Shown piece by piece: positions 12,721-61,744 of a stretch of 64,000 bases of DNA (position 1 is the first letter of the stretch; each line of letters starts with the position of its first letter). The notes under the pieces were generated by a model. It ran no database searches, was not told the origin of the DNA, and saw only the letters and a program-made list of their open reading frames with translations. Source of the stretch: Stenocarpella maydis. Its lineage: Eukaryota > Ascomycota > Sordariomycetes > Diaporthales > Diaporthaceae. Made by a program: the position numbers and the translations under genes. The DNA lies in the NCBI GenBank assembly GCA_002270565.1, contig NQMI01000010.1, positions 679,791 to 743,790 on the forward strand, read 5' to 3'.

Positions 12721-12723
12721 ACA
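12509..12723 (-). repeat. 3' LTR of copia element A
   Basis: 215 bp, TGTTGG...CCACA; matches 18822-19036 apart from about 14 transitions. A truncated duplicate lies at 12264-12475 before the N. Confidence 0.85.
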
Positions 12724-12761
12724 CTAGTAGTCTTTTCTTTTAAAAATCATAGTACAAAAAA

Positions 12762-12910
12762 ATCCCAGGCGTGGGGTTGAACCCATGCTCTCGCTATTAT
12801 AATAAGAACAAAAGAATTACCGTATTCATCATCAGAATCCCTATATTGCCGTTACTTTTAGTTATAGCAGCCCCTTTGCTAAGTTCATTAAATATACCAT
12901 TATACTAAGT
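12762..12910 (-). other. tRNA-like module (A-box, B-box, oligo-T) in the 3' region of element A
   Basis: On the minus strand an A-box-like TTAGTATAATGG (12897-12908) is followed about 110 nt later by a B-box-like GGGTTCAACCC (12774-12784). Next come an acceptor-like CCACGCCTGGGA and seven T residues, a possible Pol III terminator. The same module occurs in element B. It lies just upstream of the polypurine tract. The A-to-B distance is long for a tRNA unless it holds an insertion. It could be a captured tRNA or SINE-like piece. Confidence 0.5.
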
Positions 12911-14079
12911 ACCCATTAAATACAGGCACCCGGAGAGGCCTAGCATATCATGGCGGTCCCTACTTCCTCTACAAGCTAGGAGCCCATAATTATACAGTCT
13001 GGCATAATATAGTACTTTCCCTATGCAAAATATCCGCTTCCATTAATATATATTGCCCATTTATTATCTTTAGTACTTAAGGGTTTTAAAAGAAATACGC
13101 GATAAGAACTCATACTTCCTTCGCCTACAGGCTATAAATTAAATAAGGATTTACTTAGAGCTAGAATAATAATTGCTTGGACTCCCTAAAACTAGAATAA
13201 TAACTATCTGGCCTTCCAGACCCCTTCTCTCTCTTTATTGAGTATTAATAATTAACTAAATTAAGTATAGTCCAGATCAACTATTAATCTAATGGCAGAT
13301 ATTAATAACAAGTTTCAATAACAACTCGATCTATAAAAGCCCTCTTCGCCCGAGGCCATTTAGAGGAAGAACACTCAGTAAAGCCCTTTCCATTAGAGGC
13401 CAATAGCAAGAGTTAATAGGTGTGGATGAGGTAGTAGTTGGGTTAGGTAGGGATTATAGCAGACGGTAATAAATAGCATATTGGAGCCAACTTATCAACA
13501 AAATATATAGTAAAGCATGCAATATCCGATGCTGCTCTTGGTAAGTATATAAAATATATGTTAAGCAGGAGTTAATACTGTGAAATCTTAACTGGGGACA
13601 CTTAATACGTATAGCTGGCAACTTAAGTGCCTGTAGGATAGTGGTAACCCTTATCACCTAAACACTTAGGATGTAGGCACCACTATAAAAATCTTGGCTA
13701 CAAGGTCTCGCCCTTGGGATAGATTTAAACCATATACTGGCTAACTATATAGCTCCTTAGGGTAAGATGCAGGTAACTAGTTGATGGGGATCTGAAGTTT
13801 TGCTGGTTGTTGATACTGTGTGATCCCTTTTTATGTCTTAAGGTACTTGTTGACTTCTATCCGGGGCTTAAGGTGCTGGGAAGTGGTGATTCTTCCTTTA
13901 TGTAGGGTAGCGTTGATGTTGCGTTGGTGTATTGCTGACTAAGTTGCGTTGGTTAGTTAATTGCTATTGAGTATGCTTTTGCTGGGCAAGTTAGCATATA
14001 GCTATTCTTGCAGTAATTATTGTGATCTCTTGTATGGTATTTAGGTAGAGGAAGGGGTTGTTACTAACTGGCTATAGTC

Positions 14080-14350
14080 TATATATCCTTCCACCTTAAT
14101 AATGAGGGTATTGTTGTTAATGAGGCGTTCTAGCGCCTTATTTAGTATACTCTTTGTAAAGGCATCTGCTGGGTTATAGTCCCTAGTAATCTACTGGATC
14201 TTATGGATCTTATGCTTCTTATATAACTGCCTTAACGCTATTATATTGATTATCAGGCGTTTCTCTTTTATTATCCCTAGCTTAACCAGACACTTATATA
14301 ATGAGTATAAGTCTATATAGATGATAAGAGGGATCTCTAGTAGACTTAGG
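14080..14350 (-). pseudogene. copia RNase H domain remnant (element A)
   Basis: Minus-strand translation gives a decayed copia RNase H, including RDYNPADAFTK and KALERLINNNTL, interrupted by stops. It aligns with the better copy in element B at 22750-23040. RIP-type stops make it non-functional. Confidence 0.7.
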
Positions 14351-15894
14351 CGTTTAATAACCTAGTGTAAAGTGGCTAATATTATAATCCCTATATTAAA
14401 GCCATTAACCATGCTGTAAATCTTAGAAGCAAGTATGCTGCATATAACCCTCTTATACTTTATTAATAACTAATAGAGGATATTTCCAGTAATCTTCTAT
14501 ATAGATAGTTGCTTGATTTGCTTTTTATTTACTAGGGTAATTATATAGCTAATTTAGAAACTAAGGTCCTTGTTGTTAGCAAAAGACCCATCCATAAAGA
14601 TCATCAACTTAGCTGCTGCAAGGTCTAGAGGAATATAGTTAAGGCTATAGTTAAGGTGGTCTGGTTGCTACTTTAGCTGCCTATTCAACTTAGCACAATC
14701 CTCTTCTTTGGAGTCTTAAATTTATACCGCAATAGAGAGATTAGATGCTGCTTCCGGATAGCAAATAGAAGCTAGATATACTCCTTATGCGCATTATTCC
14801 ATATATTATTAAATGCGATCTATAGCTATGTAGTTAATTGGCTGTATTTTTGCCCCTTAGCCCTTCTATCTGAGATGCATAATGCTATTATGTAACATTA
14901 TGATCTTCATGCTATTAAAGTCTAGTAATCTCTCAGGGGTTAATCTATCCTTTAGCTTGCAGCAGATCTCCTCCTTCTTGATCTTTTGCTCCTTAAGTTC
15001 TGAGAAAGCCGGGGTATAGAGGGTAAGGGTATTATCAGTCTATATAATAGTGATACCAAAGATATCCTCACTACTATAATCAGCTATCAAGAGGCACGGG
15101 TCATATACAGACACAATCATCCCTAGCTTCTCAATATAGTATTTATAGTATGTAGCCCACTAGTATATACTGGCTTCAGCAACACTATATAAAGGCTTAA
15201 TTACCCTCATAATCATGCCAGCCGGGTATTTACCCCTTATTTTAGGAGGAAGGTAGCATAAGATAGGCCTCTTGAGTATGGATTTTAACTATAGATAGGC
15301 CTGGGTAATATTATGGAGTTCAAGATATAGTCCCTTAATCATCAAAGAAGGCGTAAGGGCAAGAAGGAGTTGATAACTTGTATATTATACTATTAGTAAT
15401 TATATAAGGATCTTATATTTTATAAGATCCCTAAAGCTAGCTATAACTAGGTGGGACTTCTTATATAGCTTCTTGGTTTTGCCCTTGATCTCCCTAATAA
15501 TGTAAGACTTAAAGATCTGTATTTCTTTGTGTTTCCTCTCATTAAACTGCTTAAACTGGAATACTCTTTGGCTGATTAGCTTGGATACTTCCTTATTATC
15601 TGACTCCTTAAAGGGGTTGCCCGGGGTAGTGATAATGCTATTCTAGCGGAGCTTTAAAGCAAGTTTATAGTTCTTAATTTCACATTAGGTGAGGAATATA
15701 TGGGCGATAATCTTATCTTCTACCTTATTGTTATTATTATTAGCAGTAGGGCTGTTATTATCGTTATCTGTAGTAATGACTGCCTTCTGCTTGCTCTTGG
15801 TTCCCTGTGGCTGTCCTCATCATCAAGGGATTACCGGGTTAGGAATAGCTGATATAGGGTCTGGCTCAAAATATACTAGCTCCTTAGGGATATT

Positions 15895-16175
15895 CTGATG
15901 AATTTGTGCTATAGAATAGCATTCAGTTCAGCGTGTGTGTGTTTCGGCAGGGTCGCAGTATGGTGCTCTGAGGCGAATTGGGACGATTGACAATGGTCTG
16001 GACAACTTTATATTGAATTAAGTTGGGCTTCTGTAAGCCCTCCTTATATACCCTCCGACNAAAGTTGTCCAGACCATTGTCAATCGTCCCAATTCGCCTC
16101 AGAGCACCATACTGCGACCCTGCCGAAACACACACACGCTGAACTGAATGCTATTCTATAGCACAAATTCATCAG
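15895..16175. repeat. 115-bp perfect palindrome around a one-base gap, LTR-like
   Basis: 15895-16009 is the exact reverse complement of 16061-16175, with 50 bp and an N (16060) between. Read on the minus strand, 16059 to about 15897 begins GTCGGAGGG, has a TATATAAGG box about 10 bp in and ends CATCA, resembling a short gypsy-type LTR. The inverted arrangement at a gap suggests a foldback or misjoined contig ends inside a nested insertion. Confidence 0.75.
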
Positions 16176-18821
16176 AGGTATAAAGGAAAGCTTAGTCTAC
16201 CAGCCATATATAGTTTTCTTGGGCTTTAATATTGCTAATAAACATACTAATACTCTCCTAATTGTTGCCCTCATAGTTGATACCCTTATTGTTGAATGGC
16301 CTTTGCCATATGGCTGTTGGTACGTACGTACAGTGGTTGTCGAACTGGTTCTGTTATTCGATGATCTATCTAGGTTCTGAAACGAGGGAGGGGAAGCACA
16401 CGGTAGGGGCTTAAGGCCTCCGTGCGGTACCTAGGTGGCTGACTAAGCCACCTCGTCCCCATACTGATGTGCGACCCTAAGTGCTATTCCAACACTTATA
16501 GTTAATAAGGAATGCATGAAATTCATCATCTAAAGGGGGTTAGTCCATAGCGCTATACATATTTATATATATACCTTTAGCCCTCTAGCACTCTTTAAAA
16601 GAGTAATTTAATAACTAGCATCCTTCCTTCTAGTAAATAAAGCATTTCTTCTTATATAGGGGATTGTTTCCATTATTCCTTCTATAGGAGCGATTGCATT
16701 CTCTAAAGAGCGGCTGGAAGTTGCCTTAGGGATAATAATTGCCTTATCCTGGGAAATATTACCCACATATAGAGTTCCTCAGGTAGTTACCTCCATATCA
16801 CCAGTTATTATTATACTAGCGGTTACTAGCGGTTCAGATAGAACTAATCACTATTAAGGTACTGCTCATTATCTTATTCTTTATCCTCATTATAGTTACC
16901 ATCCTATCCATTATTATTACCTTGCCCTATAGTATATAACTGGGAGGGGCATTAAGGCCCTAATAATGCAGCACAACAACGGAGCATATTACATACTTCA
17001 TTAGCAGTAGCTGGAGCCATCAGCTTAATAAATTAGAACTCAGATATACTGCATATAGCACGTATAAGGTTGTTATATAGTGGTTTGTCTCCCAGTACTT
17101 CTTTGTAGCTAAGTATTTAAGAGTATTACTTTATATTTTTAATCAAGATTTCCACTATTTCTAATGAGGTTTTGCCCTTATTCTTCTGCTATATTAATGC
17201 AAAAGTAGTAGTATTTTATGTTATTAAATATACTTATTATCTGCTATCTGTATTAAATTATTACTTAAGTTTAGCATATACTATAGTAAAGGTATCCTTA
17301 TTTATAATTAACTATATATAAAAATCCTTAGCTTTATCCTTTAATATCACAAGTAATACTACCTAGAAGTGAGTTAGGTATAGGTAGTTATTTTTATGGA
17401 TATTATAAAAGAGATGGATTTTATTATTAAATACTTTATCCATTGCTCTAGTAAATTTCTTATCATCTGAGTAGTATTTAGCTATATTAGCAGATATACC
17501 CTTCTCTAGTGGTATAGTATATAGCTGTTGCAAAGGGATTATAGCATACTTCTCATAGGCAGCTTGGAATTCCTCCCACTTGAGTGGTGATCTATAGCCA
17601 TTAGAAGTCTTATAGTTATATATGCCCTATAGTTAACAAAATGGGGACTGAGATCTAGGTATAACTGGGGCAGTAGGTTGTAATATAGGTCCATAGGTAC
17701 TTAGGCCTATCCCTCTATTGCTACTTAGTGCTAGTTAGCATTCCTTAAATGATAGACTATTATCATAGGGGATATAGTTATGATATCTCTTTAACTATAT
17801 TATCTATTAGTGCTAATATTATGCGGATGCTAGGGCTTTTAATAGAGAATTTATCTCCAATAGTTCTACAAAGGCCTTTATATTATTATTAACCTATAGG
17901 TATATTCCCTTACTTCATAGTATCTTCTTAAGGGCAGTAAGGATATTATAATGGATTACTCTAAATGTTTACTTTTTTTAATCCCTAAAGTCATCCTTAA
18001 AGTTAATATAGACTTCCTAACCGGTGTGCCTTACGTATACTTAATAGCGTACTTATATATAGGTATTAAGATGGATTATATATAGTCTTGGGTTACTTAG
18101 AGCATCTAGATCTGGGTCTACCCCCTATAGACTAGGGTTAAGGCTCATCTTAGCAGTAGCCTCCCTGAGTAATATATCCTCAATCATATCCAACAAGTTG
18201 ATAGGGTCAAGACTAGTAGTAACTGTTAGTATAGCTATTAATACTGATAGCATAGGGGTATTATCTTCATTATAAGGGTTTGCTATTATAATATGCAGAT
18301 CATATAGTTAATATATAGTATTATAGTAAAGAATAAGGGTGTACTGGGGCAAAGTAGGGGTAAAAAAGATAGTAACAAGGGATAGTAAGTATATAGGGGT
18401 AAGCTATTAGCAGGGGTAGTAAAGATGTGCCGGCTGGTAAGGTTAACCTTGGCTGGTGTAGCTGATTGCTAAGGGGATTGCTGGGGTAGTTGCCGATGGG
18501 TGCTGAAGTAGTAATATCTCTAGCATTATCTTTAAGAGTAGCTATAGGTTGGCAATATTATGCAGCCTTATGCATTCTGCGGTTGCTTTCTAATGATACT
18601 TAGGGTGTAGTAAACGCGTATAGAATAAAGGTAGAGTATAGCATCATGCATATAGAGCCCTCTTCTTCTTACAATAGGTAGTAATGATATCGCTAAAGAC
18701 TACTGGAGTGTCTTTAAGGAGTGATACCGTTAGTACCATTAGCATAGCCACTATTAAAGCAGTAATGATCTATCTCTTCAATCCTTGCTAATCTATAGTC
18801 GCCCTTGCAACCACTAATTAG

Positions 18822-19036
18822 TGTTGGATGGGTCATGTATTGCAATATGAGTGGGGTGTTGTTCTTGTATTTCTCTCTGTCTTTCGAGTAGTGGGTGCAG
18901 TAGGCGTAGCCCGCTAGCTATCTCGGGTCTATATAGTGGGTGGTAGTTGCTTAGTAAGCAACTACGCCCTCTGGCTACAGTACGGTGGCTGTAGCGATAG
19001 CCCACCAATGTGCTGTTGCACACTACTATTGCCACA
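18822..19036 (-). repeat. 5' LTR of copia element A
   Basis: 215 bp, TGTTGG...CCACA, immediately followed by the CATAT target duplication at 19037-19041. Less RIP-mutated than the left LTR. The sequence inside it (minus strand, from 18821 leftward) should hold the primer-binding site, but I could not match it to a specific tRNA. Confidence 0.85.
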
Positions 19037-19041
19037 CATAT

Positions 19042-20340
19042 GCCATCATGCTGCACCTGGCCTGAGTACCTGGTGTCTCGTTTCATCATGCAATCCCATG
19101 TGTACTGCGGCCGACAGATTTGGTAACCGGCCGGACCGTTCTCCAACTCCGCTCCCTTTCCACCCTCTCCCCTAACTGTATCCCACGCCCTGCAGGTCTA
19201 GGGATCACACCAACCACGTCGAGATGAGAAGCTATCGGATGCACCAACTGCCGTGATTGCAAGACGAATACTATTTTGCCAGGGAAGGGCTCATGTTGCC
19301 TGTCGGCGATCATTAATGAGACGAACATGCCGAAGGTATGAATAGGGTGACTGCCTGCACTTCCCGCATTGCCACCAGATCCCTCATCCACCGTTGTGCA
19401 AACCTTGGAATGTACCCCGCGGGTGAGGATGATCAGACCGGGCACCGTGCCACTTGCCGAAGGGATTATCTAGCCCGGGGGCCTGGGGCCTACCTCATTA
19501 AGGGTAATCTCTGCGGCCGCGTAGTAGATGGCACCCATGCACATACTATGCAACGTATTAGCCAGGCCGGGCGGTCTGTTGTGACATCGCTCTCGGTGGA
19601 CGGCTGCATCGGGGTCGCGAGGGTCGTGTTCCTTTAATAAGCCCCGGTCGAGGAGTCTGCCTTGCATATCGAGCTTGCAACATGCCACTTAAGTTTCAGT
19701 CATTTGTGTGTGGGCGCTCGGAAGACGATGATTTTAAGTGCTGCATGCGAGTAGAGGCCCCCTAAGAAACACTGCATATGTTTGGAGAAACGGAGATAAA
19801 GGACGAAAAATACTTGAGGAGACTAATTACTAGTCGTGCCGGAAGAGACATGGCCATGATCATTGCCTCGACAGGACCAAGTAAATAGTATGGTCCTAAG
19901 AAGCTCCACCTCTTGGAGTAAACAGAAGTATCGATGGGATGTCTGACACCCACTCCTACAACACCTACCGCAAGAACATAGGTTCTTACGATGTCTATAA
20001 GCCGCCTATGCTAACTTAGCAATGAATGTATGGACCTGCGAATTGTCATCTCCGTCAATTTTAAAGCCTAAACCGAGTTTTGGAGACTGTTTGAGGATGT
20101 GTCTTAGGATATAGGTGATGCATTGGTGCCCCTGCCCTCCGCTTTCCCCGTGCAAATCTCCGCATTCCAAAATACAGGGGGATGACCCCAGTAATATCAC
20201 ATCTTCTACATAGGGGCTGGCAGGGGGGCAGGGTTGGGGTGGCGGATATAGCGGCAGCCACCTCAGCTTACTTCAGCAGCATACATAGGCCAGCCAGGAC
20301 ATATTAGCCAGGCACATCCCCTAAGGCGCATTAAATATAA
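19042..20340. other. normal-GC island between transposon blocks, no supported gene
   Basis: About 1.3 kb of ordinary composition. Short frames (for example 19086-19445 and 19762-19953, minus strand) show no family I recognise. It may be the original flank of element A or a decayed gene. Confidence 0.4.
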
Positions 20341-20638
20341 GGAGAAGGCAGTAGTAGTAATAGAAATAATAATAATAAAATATTAACTAACCTATACTTA
20401 ATTACTTATAAACTAGTTATATTCTTAAAGTTTCTCTTTTTATTTAAAATAAATAATAAATATCCTTGAGAAATAAAAAGTTAGTTCAATTAAATTATAA
20501 ATAATATAAGATACCAAAAAGTAGCTGGGACCAGAGTTATGACTATATTATTACTAAACTATATAACTATATAACTATATAACTATATAACTATATAACT
20601 ATATAACTATATAACTATATAATTATACAACTATACAA

Positions 20639-20677
<39 letters not shown>

Positions 20678-21149
20678 TATAGCTATATAGTTACTATATA
20701 CCTATAATATAGGGTACTAGGAAGTAGCTAGGACCAGGAAGTGGCCACCCTACTTTACTATAAAAAAACGTCTATACACAGCCTGCTAAAACCATTAAAC
20801 TAGGCCCAAAATTAATCATATTTTCAGTATTTAAGTGTAAGTATATAAATAAGCTATAATAATATTTTTCAGGAATTTAAGAATTGTTTTACTNCTTACC
20901 ACTGTCACTACTGGCCATTTATCTACTATAGTGACTACTACTGGGAACCAGCCGTATTCACCTATAGTTGTGACTATTGCCTACTGTAGCTGTTGCCTAG
21001 TATTCTTATACTAATAGTCTTTTCTTTTATTATATATCCTTTCTTCTTCAAAAGTTTCCTTAAAAAAATCCCTTATAAGTAAAGTTAAACCCTTAATCTT
21101 ATAGTTATATAAATCATCTTAAAATTATTCAAATTATACCTAAATTACT
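20341..21149. other. AT-rich RIP-type sequence with a one-base gap at 20894
   Basis: Very AT-rich, no coding signal. It contains the octamer microsatellite at 20557-20690 and an N at 20894 that probably marks a contig join. It ends at the target-site duplication of element B. Confidence 0.6.
20557..20690. repeat. (AACTATAT)8 microsatellite followed by (AT)n
   Basis: 20557-20620 is eight exact copies of AACTATAT. Degenerate copies and a run of AT dinucleotides (about 20645-20671) follow, then the inverse-type TAGTTATATAGC. Confidence 0.9.
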
Positions 21150-21154
21150 ATAAT

Positions 21155-21365
21155 TGTTGGCTGGGTCACGTATTGCAATACGATTAGGGGTTATGGTTAA
21201 AATTCTCTATATAGGAGTAGTGGGTGTAGTGGGCGTAGCCCGCCAGCTATCTCGGGCTTATATAGAGGGTAGTGGTTGCTGAGTAAGCAACTACGCCCTC
21301 TGGCTACAGTATGGTGGCTGTAGCGCTAGCCCACCAGTGTGCTGTTGTACACTGCTATTGCCATA
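21155..21365 (-). repeat. 3' LTR of copia element B
   Basis: 211 bp, TGTTGGCTGGG...; the terminal CA reads TA, consistent with a RIP transition. Nearly identical to 28844-29054. Confidence 0.85.
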
Positions 21366-21420
21366 CTGGCAGTCTTTTTCTTTTGCCAGCGACTGTCTCC
21401 TCTAAAAACATAAAAAAAAG

Positions 21421-21567
21421 TCCCAGGCGTGGGGTTGAACTCACACTCTTACCATTTTAAGGAAAAATAAAAGAAATTACTGTATTCATTACTAAATCCC
21501 TATACTACTGCTGCTTTTGGCTATGCCAGTCCCTTTATTAAGTTTATTGTGTATACCGTTGTGCTAA
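21421..21567 (-). other. tRNA-like module (A-box, B-box, oligo-T) in the 3' region of element B
   Basis: On the minus strand the A-box match TTAGCACAACGG (21556-21567) is closer to consensus than in element A. The B-box region (21432-21442) reads GAGTTCAACCC, a likely RIP change. CCACGCCTGGGA and a T-run follow. Conservation between the two elements implies the module predates their divergence. Confidence 0.5.
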
Positions 21568-22749
21568 ATGCTTATGAAATATAGGCACCCGGAAAGACCT
21601 AGCGTGTTATAGCAGTCTCTGCTTCCTCTGGAAGCTGAGAGCATATAATTGTATGGTTTGGTATAATATAGTGCTATTTCCATATAAAATGTCTGCTCTT
21701 AATAATTTATACCGCTTATTTATTGTCTCTAGTACTTAAGGGTTGTAAAAGAAATGCATAATAAAGACTTATAATTCCTTCACTTATAGGCTATAGGTTG
21801 AATAAGGATTTGCTTGGAACTAGAATAATAATTATTTGGATACCCTGGAACTGGAATAATAACTATCTAGCCTCCTGGACCTGGATCTCTGGACCCCCTC
21901 TCCCCCTAATTAAGTGTTGATAATTAGCTAAATTGGGTATAGTATAGATTAACTGTCTTCTAGCGGCAGATATTAGTAATAGAGTTTGATAATAACTTAA
22001 TTAGTAAAAGCTCTCTCCATCTAAGGCTATTTAAGTAAAGAACATTTAGTAAAAGCCCTCTCTGTTAGAGGCTAATATCAAGAGTTAGTGGGGGTGGAGG
22101 AAGTAGTAGTTGGGTTAGGTAGGGATTATAGTAAATAGCAATGAATGGCATATTGGAGCCAACTTCTCAGCAAATGCGTAGTAGAGCATATACTATCTGA
22201 TGCTGCTCTGGGTAAGTATGTAAAACATATGTTGAGTAGGAGTTGAGATCGTGAAATCTCGATTGGGGATACTTAATATAATATAGCTGGTAACTTAAGT
22301 GCCCGTAGGATAGTGGTAACCCTTGTTACCTAAACCCTTAGTATGTAGGCACTATTGTAAAAATCTTGGCTATAAGGTCTTGCCCTTGGGATGGATTTGA
22401 ATTATAGATTGGCTAACTATGTAGCTCCTTAGGGTAAGATGCAGGTAACTAATTGATGGGGATCTGAAGTTTTGCTGGTTGCCGGTACTGTGTGATCCCT
22501 TTTTATATCTTAGGGTACTTGCTGACTGCTATCTGGGGCTTAGGGTGGTGATGGTTGGTGGTCCTCCCCCTTGGGGTAGGGCGGCATTGGTATACATGGC
22601 TTTTGCCGACCAAGTTACATTGGTCAGTCAACTGCCATAGGTTGTATTCTTGCTGGGCAAGTTAATGTGGAGCTGTTCTTACAGCAATTGTTGTAATCCT
22701 TTATATGGTGTTTAGGTAGAGGAAGGGGTTATCGCCAGCTAGCTATAGT

Positions 22750-23040
22750 TTATATATCCTTTTACCTTAATGATGAGGGTATTATTGTTAATAAGGCGCC
22801 CTAGCGCCTTATTTGGAGTACTCTTTGTAAAGGCATCTGCTGGGTTATAGTCCCTAATAATCCACTGGATCTTGTGGATCTTATGCTTCTTATATAACTG
22901 CCTTAATGCTATTATATTAATTATAAAGCGCTTCTATTTTATCATCCCTAGCTTAACCAGATACTTATATAAAGAGTAGGAATCTATATAGATGATAAGA
23001 GGGATCTCTAGCAGGTTTAAGCGCATGGTAATTTAGTGGA
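22750..23040 (-). pseudogene. copia RNase H domain remnant (element B)
   Basis: Minus-strand frame reads IPLIIYIDSYSLYKYLVKLG, then one in-frame stop, then IIALRQLYKKHKIHKIQWI, RDYNPADAFTKS and KALGRLINNNTLIIK. This is the Ty1/copia RNase H with its catalytic Asp and the conserved ADAFTK segment. The stop is TAG where CAG or AAG is expected. Confidence 0.8.
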
Positions 23041-26000
23041 GAGTAGTAGCTATTATGATCCCTATATTAAAGCTATTAATTATGCTATAGATCTTGGAAG
23101 CAAGTATGCTATGTGTAACCCTCTTGCACTTAGTTAATAACTAATAGAGGATGTTCCTGGTGATCTCTTATATAGATGGTTGCTTAGTTTACTTTTCATT
23201 TACTAGGGCAATTATATAGCTAATTTAAGAACTAAGGTCCTTATTATTAGTAAAAGAGCCGTTTATAAAGATTATCAACTTAGCTGCCGTAAGGTCTAGA
23301 GGAATATAGTTAAGGCTATAGCTAAGGTAATCTGCTTGCCACTTTAGCCGCTTGTTTAATTTGGTGCAGTCTTTTTCTTTAGGGTCTTAAATTTAAGCCG
23401 TAATAGAGAGGTTAAATGCTGCTTCCGGGTGGCAAATAGAAGCTAGATATGCTCCTCTTATATGCTGCTTTATGTACTGTTGAATGCGGTCCTTAGCTGT
23501 ATAGTTAACTGGCTGTATCTTTGCCCCTTGGCCCTTCTGTCTGAGATATATGATGCCATTGTGTGATATCATGATTCTTATGCTATTGAAGTCCAGTGAT
23601 TTCTTAGGAGTCAGCCTGTCCTTTAGCTTGTAGCGGATCTCCTCCTCCTTAATCTTTTATTCTTTAAGCTCTAAAAAGGCTGGGGTATAGAGGGTAAGAG
23701 TATTATCAGTCTGTATAGCGGTAATACCAAAGATATCCTTACTGCCATGGTTAGCTATTAAGAGGCACAGGTCGTATGCAGATATAATTATCCCCAGCTT
23801 CTCGATATAGTATTTGTAGTATGTAGCCTACTAGTGTATACCGGCTTCTGTAATGCTATATAAGGGTTTAATTACCCTTATAATTATGCTGGCTGGGTAT
23901 TTGCCCCTTATTTTAGGAGGAAGGTAGTATAAAATGGGCCTCTTGAGTATAGATTTTAACTATAGATAGGCCTGGGTAATATTATGGAGCTTAAGATATA
24001 GTCCCTTAGTTATTAATATAAGCATAAGAGCAATAAGAAGTTAATAAGTTGCATGTTATACTATTAGTGATTGTATAAGGATCTTATGCTTTATAAGGTT
24101 ACTAAATCCAGTAATAATAAGGCGGGACTTCTTATATGGCTTCTTAGTTTTGCTCTTAATCTCCCTAATAATGTGAGATTTAAAGATTTGGATTCCTTTA
24201 TACTTCTGCTTATTGAATCGCTTAAACTAGAATACTCCTTAGCTAATTAGCTTGAATACTTCCTTATTATCTGACTCTTCAAAGGGGTTGCCTGGGGTGG
24301 TAATGATGCTATCCCAGCAGAGCTTTAGAGCAAGCTTGTAGTTGTTGACTTCGCATAGGGTAAGGAATACATAAGCAGTAATCTCATCTTTCACATTATT
24401 AATAGTAGCAGCGCTATTATTATTATCATCCATAACGACAACTGCCTTCTTCTTGCTCTTAGCCCCCCGTGGCCGTCCTTATTATTAAGGGACTACCGGG
24501 TTAGGAATAGTTAGTATGGGGTCTAGCTTGAAGCATACTGGCTCCTCTAGGGTATTATTAGGGTCCGGCAGATTAAGAGGTTCTTCTTCATTACGATAGT
24601 ATGGCTATATAAGGGTTGACTGGAAGATAACTGGTCTATTGGGGAGGTCAAGTGTTATATCGTGGCTGCTGATAGAGAGTAGTTTGTATGGGCCTTGCTA
24701 CCCAATCTTTTCTCTCTATATATAGACTTCGCTCTAAAGTGGTAGGCTTGAGACTTCTAATATAACTGGGCCGTTCCTTACGCGTAATACTTTGCTGATT
24801 TTGCATATAGTGCTAATTCTCCTAATCTCCTTTATTGCCTTTTATATTGCCTTAGCTCTCTTTAGAGTAGATAGTATAGGGGCTGAGTCTTCTATTATAT
24901 ATGGGTATGCTCCAAATATAAGGAGAGTTGGTATAAGACTGTCTGGGCCAACTGTGTTGTTGACCGCACTAAAGCTTGCCTATAGTATAGCTTCTTTAGT
25001 AAACATGGTTAATAACTTGGTATATAATATATTAAAAGCCCTGTATAAAGGAGCGTGATATCGCTCTACTTTATTGATTAACTAGTATGCTTCTGCAGGT
25101 ATTTGTTTATATATAATTTCTATAATGCATATAGTGCTCTTAAACTCGCTGGAAGTAAAGTTAGTCCCCGCATTAAATATAAGGCGGTCTAGGGGACCTA
25201 TATATGTATCAATCTAGCAGCTCTATAGGGCTTCCCATGTATCTTTGGTGGAAAGAGAAGCCAAGAATTGTCTAGCTTGGAAGGAGGTGGCTAAGTTAAT
25301 AATATGTAGTATAGGGAGCCCTATTAAATACATTATATCCACGATAACTTTATAGTTAAAGTCAACATCATCACGGAGGTTAAACTTGAATCTCTAGGGC
25401 GCGGGAGAGTGCATTTGGTAATGGTGGCAGAACTTGGTAATAGCCTCTAGTGCTGAGGAATCAATATTATAGTTAGCGCCCGCTAGTAGCTGAGAGAGCC
25501 TCTCAACTGATGGGTGCCCAAATCGTTTGTATAATTGCTGTAACTCGGTCTCCGTGAGGAAGAGAATGGGGGTGTTACTACCCTTATTAATATCCGTAAG
25601 AAACCATGGATGTCCCTACTTTTAAGTAATAGGAAACATCCTCTTATGCTGCTAATTTAGCTTATATTATACAACTTTATTGGTTGTGTTCTATATAAAG
25701 AGTGAGTGCGTATTTATATCTTATATATATAAGAGGAAGGGGGTTAGCGTTTTTATTATGTGGAACGTTAAGTTGCTGGCTGCTATATTAACTATAGTTG
25801 CCCCTATTGACTGTAGTAGTTCTCCTAGCCTAAAGCGGACTGTTGCTTCTCCTGCATAAGATGTATCAAGAGTGATAGGTACAAGTTGCTGCAGCACAGT
25901 GTATTGGTTGTACCTAATAGTGGAGTAGTTGGCTGCGCTAGTATTTGGGAGAATTCCTTGGAAATGCTGATGTAAGTAGTTGTTTATTGTAAAGACCTCC

Positions 26001-26219
26001 TTGATACTACTGGCTCCTTTATTGGTCTTAGTATTGCTAGTATTGATATTATTCCCGCTAGTTATAGGGCTGGGGTTATCTTGGTTTTTTTTGCTGTTGC
26101 TATTTCTGGAGCCGGGGCTGTCCTGGTTACCTCTGCTGTTGATGTCCTTAGGGCTGGGACTATCCTGGTCCTCCTTATTGTTGTTAATACTAAAAGTATG
26201 GAGGAAGGCTTGATCTACT

Positions 26220-26565
26220 AATTATGTATAGTTTCTATAGCTTTTAGTACTGCTAATAAACATACTAGTGCTTTCTTAATTATTGCTCTTATAGTTAATG
26301 CCCTTATAATTAATAAGAAACAAGTAGAATTCCTTATCTAAGCCGCTATATATGTATATATATGNNNNNNNNNNNNNNNNNNNNNNNNNNNNNNNNNNNN
26401 NNNNNNNNNNNNNNNNNNNNAATTATGTATAGTTTCTATAGCTTTTAGTACTGCTAATAAACATACTAGTGCTTTCTTAATTATTGCTCTTATAGTTAAT
26501 GCCCTTATAATTAATAAGAAACAAGTAGAATTCCTTATCTAAGCCGCTATATATGTATATATATG
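26220..26565. repeat. exact 145-bp direct duplicate flanking a 56-N gap (assembly artefact)
   Basis: 26220-26364 equals 26421-26565. The copies lie either side of the run of N at 26365-26420, so the two contigs most likely overlap and the real distance is negative. Confidence 0.9.
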
Positions 26566-26589
26566 TGCCCTTAGCCCTCTAGCGCTCTT

Positions 26590-26650
26590 CGAAAGAGTGA
26601 TTTGATGACTAATACCCCTCCTTCTGGTAGATATAGTACCTCTTTTTGTC
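26590..26650 (-). pseudogene. copia gag zinc knuckle with mutated cysteines
   Basis: Minus-strand reading gives RYYIYQKEGVLVIKSL in one frame and, in the gag frame, Y..Y...G.WSSNH. Fungal copia gag proteins have CYVC.KEGCWS..H here. The Cys codons TGT read TAT (Tyr), as RIP would produce. Confidence 0.55.
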
Positions 26651-27277
26651 TGGGGGGTTGTCTCTCCTGCGCCTTCCGTATGGGTAGTTGTCCCCTTTAG
26701 GGGGTGGTTGGAAGTTGCCCTAGGGGCAGTAGTTGCTTTGGGGACGGTAGTTGCCTTATCCCAGGAGGTATCGCCTATGTGTAGAGCCTTGTGAGTAGTT
26801 GCCCCTATATCATTAGTTATTATTATACCGGCGGTTGAGGTAGTACTAGTCATTGTCGGGGTGCTCAGAGTAATAAAATTAGTTATCACCAGGGTAGTTA
26901 AAGTGCTCGTTATTGCCCTAGTCTTTCTCATTATTATAGTTGCCATCTAGCCAATCATTATTGCCTTGCTCTATAGTATATTGCTAGGAGGGGCGCTGAG
27001 GTCCTGATGATACAGCATAATGATGGAGCATGTCATATGCTTCGTTAGTAGTAGCTGGGGCTGTTACCTTAATATAGTAGAACTCAGGTATACTATATAT
27101 TGTGCATATGAGGTTATTATGTAGTGGTTTGTCTTTAAGTGCTCCTTTATAGCTAAGTATTTAGGTATATTACTTTATATTTTTGATTAGAATCTCTACT
27201 ATTTCTGATGGGGTTTTATTCCTATTCTTTTGCTGTATTAATGCAAAAGTAGTGGTATTTTATGCGGTTAAATATAC

Positions 27278-27607
27278 TTATTGTTTGCTATTTATATTAA
27301 ATCGTTGCTTGAGTTTGGCATATGCTATAGTGAAGGTATCTCTATCTGTAATTAATTGGATATAAAAGTCCTTAGCCTTACCCTTTAATATTGCGGGTAA
27401 TGCTGCCTGGAAGTAGGTAGGGTATAGGTGGTTGTTCTTGTAGATATTATAAAAGAGATGAATCTTATTGTTAAGCACTTTATCCATTGCTTTAGTGAAC
27501 TTCTTATTATCTGAGTAATATTTAGCTAGGTTGGCAGATATCTCTTTCTCCAATGGTATGCCACTTAGCGGCACTGGAGGGATTGTTGCATACTTCTTAT
27601 AGGACAC
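27278..27607 (-). pseudogene. copia gag fragment (element B)
   Basis: An open stretch of 109 residues on the minus strand including NNKIHLFYNIYKNNHLYP, FQAALPAILKGKAKDFYI and AYAKLKQRFN. It resembles the central gag region of fungal copia elements (KL.IFYD.C...G.P...Y..AF..MLKG.A.DYY). It is a surviving part of a decayed gag. The homologous stretch in element A (about 17.2-17.6 kb) has lost its frame. Confidence 0.7.
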
Positions 27608-28843
27608 TTGGAATTCTTCCTACTTAGCTAATAACTTGTAGCTATTGGAGGTCTTAAAGGTATAGATGCCGTGTAGCTGCTGGGATAGTGGCAGAGGTTT
27701 GGGTATATCTGGGGCAGTAGGTTGCTATATGGGTCCCTAAGTACTTAGGCCTGTTCCCTGGTTGCTGCTTGGTGCTAGTGCGTATCCCTCAAACGATCTG
27801 CTATTGTTAAAAAGGATGTAGTTATAATGTCTCTTTAACTAAATCATCTGTTAGTGCTGGTATTATATAGATGCTGGGGCCTTTAGTAGGGATTCTAACT
27901 CCAATAGTTCTATAAAGGCCTTTATATTGTTGTTAAGCCAGATATGTATCCCCTTGCTTAGTAGTATCTTCTTAAGGGTAATAAGGATATTATAGTGGAT
28001 TGCCCTAAATGTTGGCTCTATCTATCTTATAAAGTTGTCTTTAAAGTTGATATAGAGCTTGTGAGTAGTAAGCCTTGCGTATGCTTGGTAGCGATATTAT
28101 ATGTAGGTATTAAGGAGAAGTATGTGTGCTTTTGGGTTGCTTAAAGCCTCTAGGTCCGCATCTACTCCCTATAAACTAGGGTTAAGATTTGTCTTTATAG
28201 TGGACTCCTTAAGTAGTATATCCTTAATTATATCCCATATATTAAGAGGGTTAAGACTAGTAGCGCCTATTAGTGTGATTATTAATGCTGATAGGATAGG
28301 GGTATTATCCTTATTATAAGGGTTTGCTATTATAATATGTGGGTTATATGGTTAATAATAGGGATATGCTGAGGTAGAGTAGGGGTTAAATAAATGGTAA
28401 TAAGGAGTAATGAGTATATAGGGGTAAGCTTATTAGCAGGGGGTAGTAAAGATGTGCCAGCTAGTGGAGTTAACCTTAGTTGGAGTAGCCGTTACCAAGG
28501 GAGTTGCCAGACTGTTGCTAATGTGTATTAAAGTGGTAATATCTTTAGCGTTATCTTCAAGAGTAGCCATAGGTTAATAATGTTGTGCAGCTAGCGCATT
28601 CCATAGTTGCTTTCTAATGTTACTCAGGGCGTGATAGACGCGCGTTCGATGAAGAAGGACTATAGCGTGCCGTATATAGAGCCTCTTCACGTCACGATGG
28701 GTAGTAATGATGTTATCAAACCAGCTAGTGCGTCCTCAAGAAATAATTATCATTAGTACTATTAGCATAGCTACTATTATAGCAGTAATGAACTGTCTCT
28801 TTAACCTTGCTAATCTGTGGTTGCCCTTGCAACTACTGATTAG

Positions 28844-36333: not shown

Positions 36334-37899
36334 ATGACCCGGCGAGCAGCGGAATCATACAATCAAGACTCCTCCACCGCAGTCCCAGTAGTCACTGGCA
36401 CTGCCAGTGATGGATATCATGCGGGCTACGACGACAGCACCACGGAAATGCCACTGCGCACCGCTCATTCTATCTCAGAGACACATCGCTTTCCCAAGCA
36501 GCTGTTTTCAATGGCGTATGGAATGACGATCCGAGCGCCCGGCCAAAGCCAAAGTACCGTCACCATCGCTGCCACTAAAAAGAAGTCATTCACCATAATC
36601 AGAGCCGGCCTTCTGATCCCAGGAGATGGCGAGCCCTTCAGCGATGCCGCACTGGTCATAGAAAACAAGATCATTGCATGGGTCGGCCAACGATCCGACA
36701 TTCCAGACAGGTACGCCTCGGCACCACATCTCTCCTACAGCGTTCCATACGTCATGCCAGGGCTCTGGGATGTCCACGTCCACTTCGGCGGCGGCAGCCT
36801 CTTGGGCGAAGATGGCCCTGGGTATATGGGCTTTATCACGATGCATCCTGCCTCCGGCGGCGCGCGGCTCGCCCGCGGGTGCTGGGAGGCCATTCAGCGC
36901 GGATACACGAGTATGCGCGACGTGGGTGGCTACGGGTGCGAGGTAGCGAAAGCCATTGCCGAGGGCGAGATCGTGGGGCCCAATATTTACTCAGCCGGCG
37001 CCTGCCTGTCTCAAACGGCTGGGCATGGGGACGTCTTCAACCTGCCTGCTGGAGTCGTGTACGAGAACCTAGGAGTGATGAAGGTCGGCCCGGGACATTT
37101 TGGGGAGACTTTCAGCTGCATCGTTGATGGTGTGGACGAGTGCCGCCGCGCCGTGAGGTTGCAGATCCGCAGGGGCGCGAAGTGCATCAAGGTACTGGCA
37201 TCTGGCGGGGTTATGTCCAGAGACGATGAAGTGCAGTACGCACAGTTTAGCGAGGAAGAGCTGAAGGTCATCGTCGAAGAGGCAGCAAGGCAAGGCCGTT
37301 CTGTGGCAGCGCATGTCCACGCAAAGGCAGGTATACTGGCAGCAGTTAAGGCTGGAGTGAAGACGGTGGAGCACGTGTCATTCGCCGATCAGGAGTGCGT
37401 TGACCTCGTCAAGAAGACTGGAACTATTTACGTGGCCACCAGGCTCGTTACAGAGTATCTGCTCTCCACCGGGGGAGAAGGACTGGACCCATCAACATGG
37501 GAGAAAGCGAAGGTCTGCGGTGCTCATCATCTGGCGGCTTACAAGTTGGCAATCGACGCAGGCTGCACATTTGCTCTGGGGACTGACACGCCGCCTGGTG
37601 TCAACATGGCATTGGAGCTTGAATATGCTGTGAAGGCTGGTCTCACAAATCTAGAGGCTATTAAGGCGGCCACGGCCAACGGTCCCCTCACAATAGGCGC
37701 CCAAGCGCCGAAGACCGGGCAACTCAAGGCCGGCTATGAGGCGGATATACTTGGCCTTACAGCAAATCCGGTAGAAGACGTGCGTGTTCTACAAGACAAG
37801 ACCAATATCAAGCTTGTCTGGAAGGGAGGCAAGATATTCAAAGGCCCCGGTATAGGCCCGTGGGGAGAAGACAAATGGTGGGGAGACGACTGGAGCTGA
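36334..37899 (+). CDS. metal-dependent amidohydrolase, ochratoxinase-like
   Basis: Intronless, 521 residues. TIM-barrel amidohydrolase with the full binuclear metal site: H148 and H150 (GLWDVHVHFGG), K286 as probable carboxylated lysine (KCIKVLASGG), H327 (AAHVHA), H347 (VEHVSFAD) and D418 (LGTDTPPG). The spacings 41, 20 and 71 from K to D match what I recall for Aspergillus niger ochratoxinase. The family hydrolyses amide or peptide-like bonds (prolidase/imidazolonepropionase-like), so a detoxifying or carboxypeptidase-like role is plausible but the substrate is not shown. The first about 80 residues are a low-complexity extension; M60 or M64 (MAYGM) could be an alternative start. No signal peptide is evident. 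Confidence 0.85.
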   Translation: MTRRAAESYNQDSSTAVPVVTGTASDGYHAGYDDSTTEMPLRTAHSISETHRFPKQLFSMAYGMTIRAPGQSQSTVTIAATKKKSFTIIRAGLLIPGDGEPFSDAALVIENKIIAWVGQRSDIPDRYASAPHLSYSVPYVMPGLWDVHVHFGGGSLLGEDGPGYMGFITMHPASGGARLARGCWEAIQRGYTSMRDVGGYGCEVAKAIAEGEIVGPNIYSAGACLSQTAGHGDVFNLPAGVVYENLGVMKVGPGHFGETFSCIVDGVDECRRAVRLQIRRGAKCIKVLASGGVMSRDDEVQYAQFSEEELKVIVEEAARQGRSVAAHVHAKAGILAAVKAGVKTVEHVSFADQECVDLVKKTGTIYVATRLVTEYLLSTGGEGLDPSTWEKAKVCGAHHLAAYKLAIDAGCTFALGTDTPPGVNMALELEYAVKAGLTNLEAIKAATANGPLTIGAQAPKTGQLKAGYEADILGLTANPVEDVRVLQDKTNIKLVWKGGKIFKGPGIGPWGEDKWWGDDWS

Positions 37900-57999: not shown

Positions 58000-60314
58000 T
58001 TGTAGCACGTCGGCTCGAGGGACTGGAGCATCTTATATTCCCTTGGCCTCACTGTGCAACCAAGGGAGCCGCTTCAACTGAGGGGTAGGCGGATATGTAC
58101 CCCGTGGATTTACACTACAAGAAACCCCGTGTCAAAAGTCGAGTCCAATGTTATGGCGCGTTGGGATACGCGAGGATCCAAGTAAGTACCTAGGTAGGCA
58201 CCTAGGTACTTAGGTATGGATGGAACGAACCATTTCACATTGCGCCACCAGCCCAGAAGGCCAAGCGCCCAGCTCAGCAAAACCATCCAGAAGCGGGCTA
58301 CCCCGTCTTCTCCCCTCTTACGCCGAGAAAGATGGACGTCTTGGACTTATCCACATATCTGTCATTGCGGAGGTCCCGCGGTACTCCTACCCCCCATCGT
58401 GTTCACGCCCCCCCGCCCCCCAGCTAGGTGGCCAGAAGCATCCGGCACGGCTTCATTCACATGTACACTAGTCCTGTCGAGGGGCTTGGGCGACGGATAT
58501 TAATCCGTTGGATTACCAGAAAGGGTCGACCCTGCCGAGGCAAGCACAGCTGCCACGTCGAGAACTTCGCGAAGAGATGCCCACCTCCTGCGCCGGGATG
58601 CAGGACGTCGGAAGAGGGTGGTAACCTCAGGCCATTTCCAAGCCTCCCCCGCATTAGTACCCCAGGCAATAACACCCTATGGGATCCTATCAACCGGTCG
58701 TAAACGGCTGCTAAGAACTCAGAGGACAGGTCCACTACCACGCAGCAAGGATCTGGCCGCGGCAGTGCCGGAGGGCGGCATGGCGGGTGGCCTCGTCGTG
58801 GCGATCAAAAGCGGCGATAAATATGCCAATTAGATCTTATGCAGGGCCTCCTACTCCTATTTGTACTTAGAGCCGGGCCGGATAACAAGTAAGCCTGCGT
58901 CTGCGCGAATGGCATTGTATATCGAGCAACATATGTCGTCCCAGCATGCTGTTCGAGAGTTGCAACGATGTCGAGCGTCGTTGCATTCGCGTGGCAGGCG
59001 ACGCAGCAGACTGGATCCTGGCCAAGCAGAACTGACTCCACGTCCCGGTTCAACTGGAGTCGTGCTGTGTCCATGAGGCCAGGGCCCCGTCCTCATTGGC
59101 CTAGGCGCTCAGGTCAGTCGCACCCAACTCCTCGGGTCGCTTGCGGGGTCCCCAGACTGACATGCTCACTCGGACTTTCCTGGCCACGCAGCCAAGAAAT
59201 AGTCAAGACCGGCATCCTGACAAAGCAGTAAAAGTCAACTGTGATTGTTTCCCGACGGCTGCGCTGCCCGAGGTCGCTCTGGTTGAGGTCAACATCCGAG
59301 CGGCACATACATCATGCTTTCAGGTCGCGATAAGCTGCGGGATAAATCTCAGCCACTATCCTGCCAGCCTTGGAGCCTGGATTATTATTAATAATCCAAC
59401 CGCTCCTCCTCTCCGTGGGGGTTAGACGCTCGCTGGAGCTGGGGGTTGCAACAGGCGGGCCCAGGCAAACACGAGTGGGCACCCTTGGCACAATGTGTAT
59501 CAGTAGCCCCACGGGGGAAAAGGCCTTCGACTGCCAAGCAACAGGGAGTGGATAACAAACAACATCACGAGCTTCGTCTGCTAATCCGACAGGGGGAATA
59601 CCGGGTCTGACGCGAGCCGATCGGAAGGCAGAGTCCTGTCGCGTAAGAAGCTCTCCTCGGTATTACCTCACCGAAACTGCTATGGTGCGTTGGCTCTCTC
59701 TGAAGTTGCTTCGCGGCGGGGACATCATCCCCAGGCTGCCTACCTACCATATTGCGTGTCGTACTTACAGCCGCATGCTCAGGAGGTCACAGGCAACACG
59801 GTCATGTGTGCTGGCTTATCGTGTGGCCTTTGCTTTTACGTTTTCGGACGATGACTCAGGCGAGTAATGTTATGTGGCCCGAAAGTCCAAGGTTTGAAGT
59901 TCGGTTACGGCCAACTTTCGAGCAGTCAACGCTTGTTCACCGGCCTGCCCCGGGGCGAGCGGTTGTACAGCCTGACCGAGCCGGCATCCCCAGACTCCCA
60001 CACAGAATAGGCTCTCGATTCTGAGTTCACTTGAAGTTTATCATGTCCAATTCCTTCGTGTGAAAATTCAAGCCAACCGACCAGCGGTATCCTAGGCATA
60101 AGTTTTATTGATTACACCTAGGTAGTTGCGTGATGGATTTCGGAATGAGGTCAATAAACATGCTGGCAGTGCTGGGAGGCGTCGAGGATTAACGACCTCG
60201 GTGACAGGCGATACCTAGGTACCTAAGCTCAAGAGTCCGCCCGCCCAGCTACTTATATACCCTCAATTACAACGGGCCCTCCACCACGGTTTCAATAAAT
60301 GCTCCTGGTCTGGT
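58000..60314. other. intergenic, about 2.3 kb, no supported gene
   Basis: Contains TACCTAGGTA copies at 58187 and 58200 and near 60115 and 60212. Many frames of 60-95 codons exist on both strands; none is recognisable. Confidence 0.5.
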
Positions 60315-60457
60315 GGTCTGGTGGTCTAGTGGTATGATTCGCGCTTAGGGTACACCCTGAAGTTTGATTGCGCGAGGGTAAGTCAACTCAGTTCCACTTG
60401 CAAAAATTTTAATAGCTAACAGACATCCAGTCCCGGGTTCAATCCCCGGCCAGACCC
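60315..60457 (+). tRNA. tRNA-Pro (anticodon AGG) with two introns, one of spliceosomal type
   Basis: Acceptor stem GGTCTGG (60315-60321) pairs fully with CCAGACC (60450-60456), discriminator C. A-box TGGTCTAGTGG (60322-60332). Anticodon stem CGCGC/GCGCG, loop TTAGGGT with anticodon AGG at 60347-60349. Intron 1, 60351-60368 (18 nt), is at the canonical position 37/38. After AGG of the variable loop, a second insert of 53 nt (60378-60430) begins GTAAGT, has GCTAAC near its end and finishes CAG. Without it the variable loop is AGGTC, followed by the T-arm CCGGG-TTCAATC-CCCGG (B-box 60436-60446). With both inserts removed the cloverleaf is complete and mismatch-free in the acceptor, anticodon and T stems. 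A tRNA pseudogene is the alternative, but the perfect stems argue against it. Confidence 0.85.
60378..60430 (+). other. GT-AG intron-like insert in the tRNA-Pro variable loop
   Basis: 53 nt with donor GTAAGT, branch-site match GCTAAC (60415-60420), short 3' spacer and CAG acceptor, like the mRNA introns of the protein genes in this window. Its excision restores a five-base variable loop. tRNA endonuclease normally needs a bulge-helix-bulge at 37/38, which this site does not offer. Confidence 0.75.
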
Positions 60458-60478: not shown

Positions 60479-60488
60479 TTTTTTTTTT
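60479..60488 (+). terminator. RNA polymerase III terminator of the tRNA-Pro gene
   Basis: A run of ten T residues begins 22 bp after the discriminator base, as expected for Pol III termination. Confidence 0.8.
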
Positions 60489-61744
60489 CTTTTTAATATA
60501 CACGGTACTTGACGTGCTGCCGTCATGCTCTGAGTATGTTATCCAAAGGCCTTAACTGTGTGTAGCACATGTAAACAACACTACCGCTCCTATTTTGCTC
60601 CAACGTCATGACAAATTCATATATTTCGACGAATATTACAGGTGCCACTCTGTGGTGTTAATTTATGTTACCCTGTGCTCCAAAGCAGGAAGTACGAGCT
60701 CGTGCCCATAAACGCCAACCATGTACGAGTATTGCGGTCAAGAGATGCCGAAATTTGAGGTTGGCTGCTGGTCTCAGTTTCAGTGCAAGACTTGTCAACT
60801 AATCAGCTCACAAAGCACGTAATTACGAGTCGACGTGCACTAGTCCCACCAAGCAGTAAACAACAAGCAGCAAGAGTTTCAGCCGCAACGCTGGGACAAC
60901 GAGGCAAAAGCCGTCCGTCCCTCTTTGCGGCTATAGTTCGTGCACGGTGCGCGCGTCTTTGGAAATGCATGAGCTGGTCGGTCCGGAGTCCCTAATGCAG
61001 GTGCTCGGCAGTGGTGACTGCTATACTCCTATGTAGTCTGCAATTATGATCTGACGATCTAATAGCTGACAGCTGGAGTCTAACCAGAACGCGCTTGTGA
61101 AAGACACCCAATGAATCCACAAACCGTGCAGCCCCAATAGGAGCTTCCCACAGTGGGAACATGCCGTGAAAGCTTGCGCGGTCATTTGAGCCTCTCATGT
61201 CCGATATAGCCAGAGGCGTAACCTTTCTTGGCACCACCTCCGATCATTATCGACAATAGCGCCTCGGAACCATGCCGTATTAGGGCAGGAAATGACCTCT
61301 TCACGCTTGCTAGACCCCTATATTCTACGAAGAAATGGGATGAATGCCCGGTTTCCAATTTCTATACTTCCTGGACGTTACATAGATATCGCGGGGTCAT
61401 CGGCCGTTTCCAGTTTTTAACGTGGTCAAGTGAGTGCTTTCATTCGCGGCCAACTTACAACGTCCCCTGTCGGGATGCACGGAGACAAGGTACACCGGCA
61501 CGCACGGCACTCGAATTGATGTGCGATCTACCCACATAATACCCCGTCAGTGCATGGGGTAAAGGCCCATGATGCTGGTTGCGGCAGCATCGCGAGCCAT
61601 GCTATGGCTCTACTTAAAGCACGGTCTCCTCCTCCTCCTTCTACAAACATGCGCATGGAGATGTTGGTTTTGGACTTCATAACTGGTGTTTACAATTCCA
61701 GCTGAACGGCAAACCAAGAAATTCCTGCGAAGGGCGATATCATA
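60489..61744. other. intergenic, no supported gene
   Basis: About 1.25 kb with no recognisable frame. The right end is the promoter and leader of the NLP gene. Confidence 0.5.

Follow-up and report, generated by a model that had tools for sequence, protein, structure and literature searches.

The window analysed here is a stretch of 64,000 nucleotides (G000:C2:679791-743790) from a fungal genome of 53.5 Mb in 312 contigs, and this one assembly underlies all of the counts given below. On its forward strand lies a tRNA-Pro(AGG) gene that is interrupted twice. The parts of this gene and the elements around it are listed here.

60315..60457, + strand: tRNA-Pro(AGG) gene, whole precursor, position 1 to 73 (from the sequence, ARAGORN and the alignment with five other loci)
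60315..60350, + strand: exon 1, with the acceptor 5' strand, the D arm and the anticodon up to position 37 (ARAGORN on the GT-AG-removed sequence, coordinates recomputed)
60351..60368, + strand: canonical 37/38 tRNA intron, 18 nt, equivalent under a one-base shift (ARAGORN on the GT-AG-removed sequence)
60369..60377, + strand: exon 2, with the anticodon stem 3' strand and variable-loop AGG, ending at position 46
60378..60430, + strand: GT-AG insert, 53 nt, at variable-loop positions 46/47, with a GTAAGT donor, a branch-like GCTAAC and a CAG acceptor
60415..60420, + strand: GCTAAC inside the 53-nt insert, with the branch-site-like word CTAAC at 60416..60420
60431..60457, + strand: exon 3, with variable-loop TC, the T arm, the acceptor 3' strand and discriminator C
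60323..60336, + strand: A box region, GGTCTAGTGGTATG (from the sequence)
60436..60446, + strand: B box, GGTTCAATCCC, 3' of the insert and uninterrupted by it (from the sequence)
60479..60488, + strand: run of ten T, Pol III terminator-like (from the sequence)
60253..60259, + strand: TTATATA, an upstream TATA-like element (from the sequence)
60307..60314, + strand: 8-nt direct repeat, GGTCTGGT, of the bases with which the tRNA starts, immediately 5' of the mature 5' end

Direct reading of the letters bears out the original prediction that this gene contains two inserts, one of 18 nt and one of 53 nt marked by GTAAGT, GCTAAC and CAG. The shorter is a canonical nuclear intron at 37/38 (for the tRNA-Pro(AGG) of Aspergillus niger, Table 1 of PMC6108506 gives 91 bp with a 19-nt intron). 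The longer differs from such introns in its position at 46/47 and in its spliceosomal signals. With default settings, ARAGORN and an Rfam scan found nothing in the window, and when long introns were allowed ARAGORN miscalled the precursor as 'tRNA-Stop'. With the GT..AG stretch taken out, the same program reads a tRNA-Pro(agg) with an 18-nt intron. None of the six unspliced tRNA-Pro precursors described below was read correctly by ARAGORN, which serves as a warning that tRNA finders miss or misname genes interrupted in this way. The 8-nt duplication is peculiar to the window copy, being found in none of the five other Pro loci in the alignment; because of it, two 5' ends would in principle be open to RNase P.

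Insert-bearing tRNA genes elsewhere in the genome

A DNA search with the window gene found six loci in all, each matching over nearly the full length, and a search with the 5' half of the tRNA, allowing one mismatch, returned the same six together with two places that by eye are not tRNAs. Five of the six loci are AGG and one is CGG, and all carry an insert, of 53 to 57 nt. No difference was seen between contigs C56 and C100 in stretches sampled over about 41 kb, and their loci were for this reason counted as one, so that there are five distinct Pro loci (4 AGG and 1 CGG). On C56 the likeness begins at about 2300 and reaches at least as far as 43000; on C100 it starts at about 438000. The four stretches sampled were identical or nearly so, which may reflect a recent duplication or a redundant assembly. 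This pair apart, the flanks of the Pro loci are unrelated beyond about 50 bp. The original prediction had proposed a check for tRNA-Pro(AGG) copies without the insert, and neither the whole-gene nor the 5'-half DNA search found an insert-free AGG or CGG copy in this assembly. A pseudogene assignment for the Pro loci was rejected on these grounds and because their exons are intact. A tRNA-Pro(TGG) gene on C279 has no intron at all. In two genes of the window, CCC and CCT make up 16 of the 37 Pro codons.

Alignment of the Pro loci shows near-identical exons, and the invariant columns of the insert are GTAAG, CTAAC and the final AG. The donor is GTAAGT or GTAAGC at all six loci, and the spacing from the branch A to the AG is equal in the five distinct ones. 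The insert interiors were no closer to one another than shuffles in 8 of the 10 pairs of Pro loci, with p below 0.05, uncorrected, in the other two. TATA-like words occur within 70 nt upstream in 6/6 Pro loci, 0/2 Lys loci and 18/39 other nuclear tRNA genes, and T runs lie within 40 nt downstream in all of the eight loci with an insert that were tested (6 Pro and 2 Lys) and in 37/39 other nuclear tRNA genes.

The original prediction dealt with a single gene. Its case holds for the window gene, but this gene is not alone, as similar inserts were found in tRNA-Lys(CTT) and in one tRNA-Arg(TCG). A DNA search found six tRNA-Lys(CTT) loci, of which five have a GT-AG insert inside the anticodon, the sixth (on C292) having the canonical intron alone. 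These anticodon inserts are 55 to 57 nt long, occur in three phases (CTC^, CTCT^ and CTCTT^) and have the donors GTATGT, GTAAGT, GTACGT, GTTAGT and GTAAGT. Removal of GT..AG leaves CTCTTA and a canonical intron in each of the five; for C276 the acceptor used is the later CAG in CAGCAG. Between C278 and C258 the inserts can still be aligned, and the pattern thus looks like the sliding of one old intron.

A more elaborate Lys copy is present on C44 (G000:C44:53700-53831, minus strand, and downstream), where two GT-AG inserts accompany the canonical intron. The second of these, of 63 nt with the donor GTGAGA, falls between positions 53/54, inside the B box, the core of which takes its G from the AG acceptor. 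When 33 nt from the 3' end of this insert, out of 63, were searched against the genome together with the flank, this partial query matched only itself. This copy is without one C in the T stem, so that it may be dead or misread, and it may be a pseudogene.

The tRNA-Arg(TCG) gene in question (G000:C250:258647-258807, minus strand) has a 57-nt GT..AG insert after position 68 (68/69), in the 3' acceptor strand, and its paralogue on C6 is insert-free, one of two Arg(TCG) loci thus being interrupted. Removal of the insert gives a fully paired acceptor stem, with one G-U pair, and the same bases as in the C6 paralogue. The donor is GTAGGC, CTAAC is present and the acceptor is a weak AAG; in a MAFFT alignment of the C250 copy the gap was not at the predicted splice junction. 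This Arg copy sits in AT-rich sequence.

How widely such inserts are distributed was approached in several ways. A search with RF00005, in which 63 of 1343 candidates were scored, gave 57 matches, 15 on C312, which we take to be mitochondrial because of its dense set of tRNAs, and 42 elsewhere. Among these 42 are two tRNA-Lys(CTT) and one tRNA-Arg(TCG) with a GT-AG insert. The tRNA set is thus incomplete, and the number of affected tRNA genes is a lower bound. A survey with a B-box pattern gave 432 matches, against 469 for a control pattern. One hundred were listed, of which 81 were read in 80 stretches, 9 were already known or in the window and 10 were unread. Among 35 B-box places with at least 4 T-stem pairs, within the matches listed, ARAGORN found 15 further tRNA genes. 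An automatic GT-AG scan of 236 segments flagged seven, namely six of ten known cases put in and the Arg copy. Inserts of the Lys anticodon type escape the scan (4 segments, with their duplicates from the RF00005 set); in C44 it finds the T-arm insert only, and in C93 it gives a tie with a second donor. It rescued none of the 15 genes from the B-box survey, and with a sensitivity of 6/10 this is a weak negative. Other tRNA genes with long inserts, L108 and L168 among them, were rejected as GT-AG cases, because inspection by eye showed inserts that suit 37/38. C15 and C245 gave 3 matches against 3 and 3 in the control, that is, the control level; two scans of fungal contigs in a viral collection gave no match, and the one SRP RNA gene found has no large insert.

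Splice signals and the position of the boundaries

Removal of the GT..AG stretch yields a good tRNA, but the original claim that only removal of both inserts gives a perfect cloverleaf was too strong. When 2400 intervals per locus were given to ARAGORN at nine loci (C56 and C44 being left out), many equalled or beat GT..AG removal. Since the program accepts so many intervals, the cloverleaf alone was rejected as a means of placing the boundary. Rarity of the motif alone was likewise rejected as evidence, because the window has no more copies of the loose motif GTAAG-CTAAC-AG than chance would give (3 observed, 3.66 expected). It is comparison between loci, not the cloverleaf alone, that fixes the predicted boundaries of the insert.

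This comparison turns on the Pro locus of C93. In the other four distinct Pro loci the junctions read GAGG^GTAAG...AG^TCCCGGG, at 46/47. In C93 the junction is 2 nt further on, GAGGTC^GTAAGT...CAG^CCGGG, at 48/49, and GT-AG removal there gives the same mature tRNA as at the other Pro loci. When retained lengths of 0 to 8 nt were tried, the loci shared a mature product solely at 0, 1 and 2 nt. The product with 2 nt retained has the standard variable loop of 5 nt and corresponds to GT..AG removal in all five distinct loci; given a 5-nt variable loop, the GT..AG product is the sole mature sequence common to the five. A comparable calculation covered nine loci, five Pro and four Lys, with C56 (a duplicate) and the C44 Lys copy omitted. 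The splice motif restored the expected tRNA in 9/9; for 60 random motif sets the figure was 0.10 loci on average and never above 1. At C310 and C200 there are, respectively, 2 and 4 intervals that fit the splice motif and restore the tRNA.

The signals themselves are those of U2-type introns. A GT donor of fungal consensus stands at the exact junction in the Pro, Lys, C44 T-arm and Arg inserts. CTAAC, which conforms to the branch sequence CTRAY, is present in the 6 Pro, the 5 Lys anticodon, the C44 T-arm and the Arg inserts. The acceptor is CAG or TAG, and so YAG, in all of these except Arg, where it is AAG. Removal leaves an intact mature RNA also from shifted boundaries, C44 with its T stem one base short being the exception. 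RCTAAC occurs in 9 of the 10 distinct Pro and Lys anticodon inserts, which measure 53 to 57 nt; both the word and the length agree with the fungal intron consensus as given in PMC5832005. The putative pre-mRNA intron of a quinate permease-like gene in the window, lying in the gap between its first two tblastn blocks, also has CTAAC, together with GTATTG, and pre-mRNA introns thus probably use the same branch word.

Other classes of insert fit less well. Introns of the canonical tRNA-endonuclease class lie at 37/38, and these inserts are at 46/47 (48/49 in C93), at 34-37 in Lys, at 53/54 and at 68/69. The bulge-helix-bulge (BHB) class requires two 3-nt bulges and a 4-bp helix; at the junction ±1 base, all four central pairs could be formed in 0/8 loci and at most three of four at the best (the pairing of anticodon and intron in the canonical introns was also looked at, but by criteria too loose to make it a positive control for BHB). 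Group I and group II introns were rejected because the inserts are 53 to 63 nt long and the window has no such Rfam match at the gathering score. A class II tRNA with a long variable arm was also rejected, since the interiors are near-random and by eye share no common stem in predicted folds.

Precedents, proposed processing and alternatives

The original prediction had cited U6 snRNA as a precedent for spliceosomal introns in Pol III genes, and GT-AG introns are indeed present in U6 genes of this same genome. RF00026 gave six matches, of which two, on C1 and C167, exceed the cut-off; the match on C263 was rejected as unlike U6. The C1 gene is intronless. The U6-like genes of C167, C301 and C68, the last with a degenerate 5' part, have one GT-AG intron each, after GAGAGGAT or GAGAAGAT, at a GAT^TAGC site. 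The U6 gene on C21 (match 61408-61478, minus strand) has three GT-AG introns of 52, 58 and 56 nt, and its exon pieces agree with the U6 consensus. B-box-like words (AGTTCAACTC, AGTTCGATTC and AGTTCGATCC) are found in the introns of three U6-like genes (L092, L093 and L096). The U6 intron of S. pombe holds a B box. These words suggest that here, too, a promoter element for Pol III may lie in the intron.

Fungal U6 genes, including those of Schizosaccharomyces pombe, are described in PMC10484740 as having mRNA-type introns that are thought to arise by reverse splicing; the tRNA inserts resemble these as GT-AG introns in a Pol III transcript with mRNA-type splicing. They differ in that tRNAs are no component of the spliceosome and in that these precursors also need tRNA endonuclease. 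As U6 is a spliceosome component, insertion there has a ready explanation. Fungal U3 snoRNA genes have normal spliceosomal introns with RCTRAC branch sites and YAG acceptors, a second likeness of spliceosomal signals in a small structured RNA; according to that 2017 paper, frequent interruption is known among small structured RNAs for U3 and U6 only, and tRNA is not listed (PMC5832005). For the rDNA of lichen fungi an ectopic spliceosomal intron of 57 bp, also removed from yeast rDNA, is reported in PMC8527467; this too is a spliceosomal intron in a non-Pol II transcript, but one made by Pol I and belonging to rRNA. A search of literature outside subscription journals and preprints found no published spliceosomal intron in a tRNA gene, and in two tRNA gene reviews that treat algal and nucleomorph exceptions (PMC4090602, PMC4033280) the word stem 'spliceosom' is absent from the portions of text examined. 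That spliceosomal introns occur in Pol III RNAs is known; what would be new is their presence in tRNA genes.

The reading that we favor, with a probability of about 0.86, is that of a U2-type spliceosomal intron lying within a Pol III tRNA gene and predicted to be removed by the spliceosome, in addition to a 37/38 intron that would be removed by tRNA endonuclease. This is the reading that the original prediction had put forward, and it fits the observations best: the anatomy of the gene, the recurrence of the insert, its conserved signals, the shifts that preserve the product and the want of an insert-free Pro(AGG/CGG) copy, from which we infer that splicing takes place. Pol III, with the A and B boxes and the T run, would make the tRNA-Pro precursor. 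The spliceosome would excise the GT-AG intron as a lariat branched at CTAAC and so join position 46 to 47; the 18-nt intron would be handled by the usual tRNA endonuclease and ligase. With regard to the order of these steps, the Lys insert splits the anticodon beside the canonical intron, so that in this tRNA the first step is most likely that of the spliceosome, with the endonuclease following. It is very likely that the insert is removed in vivo, since all of the AGG/CGG loci found are interrupted and CCC and CCT codons are used. To our knowledge the spliceosome is the only agent that reads such signals. The introns may have been gained by reverse splicing or a similar process, with gene duplication following.

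Four other explanations may be considered. The loci may be dead or degenerate tRNA copies that gained an insert, the cell living on other tRNAs. The tRNA-Pro(TGG) gene lacks the insert, and an AGG tRNA might be dispensable to a cell whose TGG tRNA is permissive. The 8-nt duplication in the window copy, the missing T-stem base of the C44 Lys copy and the AT-rich surroundings of the C250 Arg copy also point in this direction. However, all six AGG/CGG loci found are interrupted and yet keep near-identical exons, the T runs persist, the CCC and CCT codons are used in window genes, and splice signals would not survive alone in dead copies. We consider this explanation improbable.

Slightly less probable is that the tRNA splicing endonuclease cuts the insert at BHB-like sites, the insert being a non-canonical tRNA intron and the GT and AG coincidental. 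The gene already relies on this enzyme for its 37/38 intron, and eukaryotic tRNA introns outside 37/38 are known in algae and nucleomorphs, where, according to a review, certain splicing endonucleases are inferred to recognise them (PMC4090602). The resemblance to the tRNA introns of archaea, Cyanidioschyzon and nucleomorphs lies in extra introns outside 37/38, several per gene; the archaeal ones are of BHB type and the nucleomorph ones 3 to 24 nt long, again as given in PMC4090602, and BHB is absent here, the 4-bp central helix being lacking in 8/8 loci tested. An endonuclease would, moreover, leave unexplained both the invariant GTAAG, CTAAC and AG within diverged inserts and the retention of GT-AG in the shifted copies.

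A self-splicing or mobile insert, either a group I/II intron or an introner-like DNA element, is very unlikely. Several tRNA families and sites are hit within one genome, as would suit a mobile element, but the interiors are near-random between the Pro loci and the partial query from the C44 T-arm insert found no second copy. Self-splicing is opposed by lengths of 53 to 63 nt, which are far below group I/II size, and by the Rfam result in the window. Finally, the identity of C56 and C100 over the sampled stretches leaves room for assembly redundancy, but five distinct Pro loci with unrelated flanks, five Lys loci and one Arg locus, with splice sites that preserve the product, cannot all be artefacts of assembly or of chance.

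If the inserts are spliceosomal introns, then, judging from these genes, the spliceosome is probably obligatory in this fungal lineage, in turn with the tRNA endonuclease, for all tRNA-Pro(AGG/CGG) and most tRNA-Lys(CTT) precursors, the Lys anticodon being made by spliceosomal ligation, and introns have probably been gained repeatedly in Pol III genes, at four sites in tRNA and several in U6. The introns of tRNA and of mRNA are taught as two systems, each with its own enzymes. In these genes a single small RNA would require the two together, in a testable order, and translation would be directly dependent on the spliceosome for its tRNA-Pro and tRNA-Lys. Some copies have the intron shifted, others lack it and others have perhaps gained it recently; together they also provide a natural set for the study of intron gain and sliding outside protein-coding genes.

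Some other features of the window deserve mention. From 12001 to 28000 it is AT-rich, with a GC content of 0.37-0.41 in 4-kb steps compared with 0.44-0.59 elsewhere, and this part is possibly repeat-rich and RIP-affected. Two of its proteins have their closest named sources in Diaporthe. For the quinate permease-like transporter this is D. ampelina, at 90%. A single-exon amidohydrolase gene at 36334-37899 gives a strong match to the solved ochratoxinase 4c5y (E 1.6e-175), and its ochratoxinase-like product has D. amygdali as the closest named source, at 82%, and reaches 88% to other assemblies.
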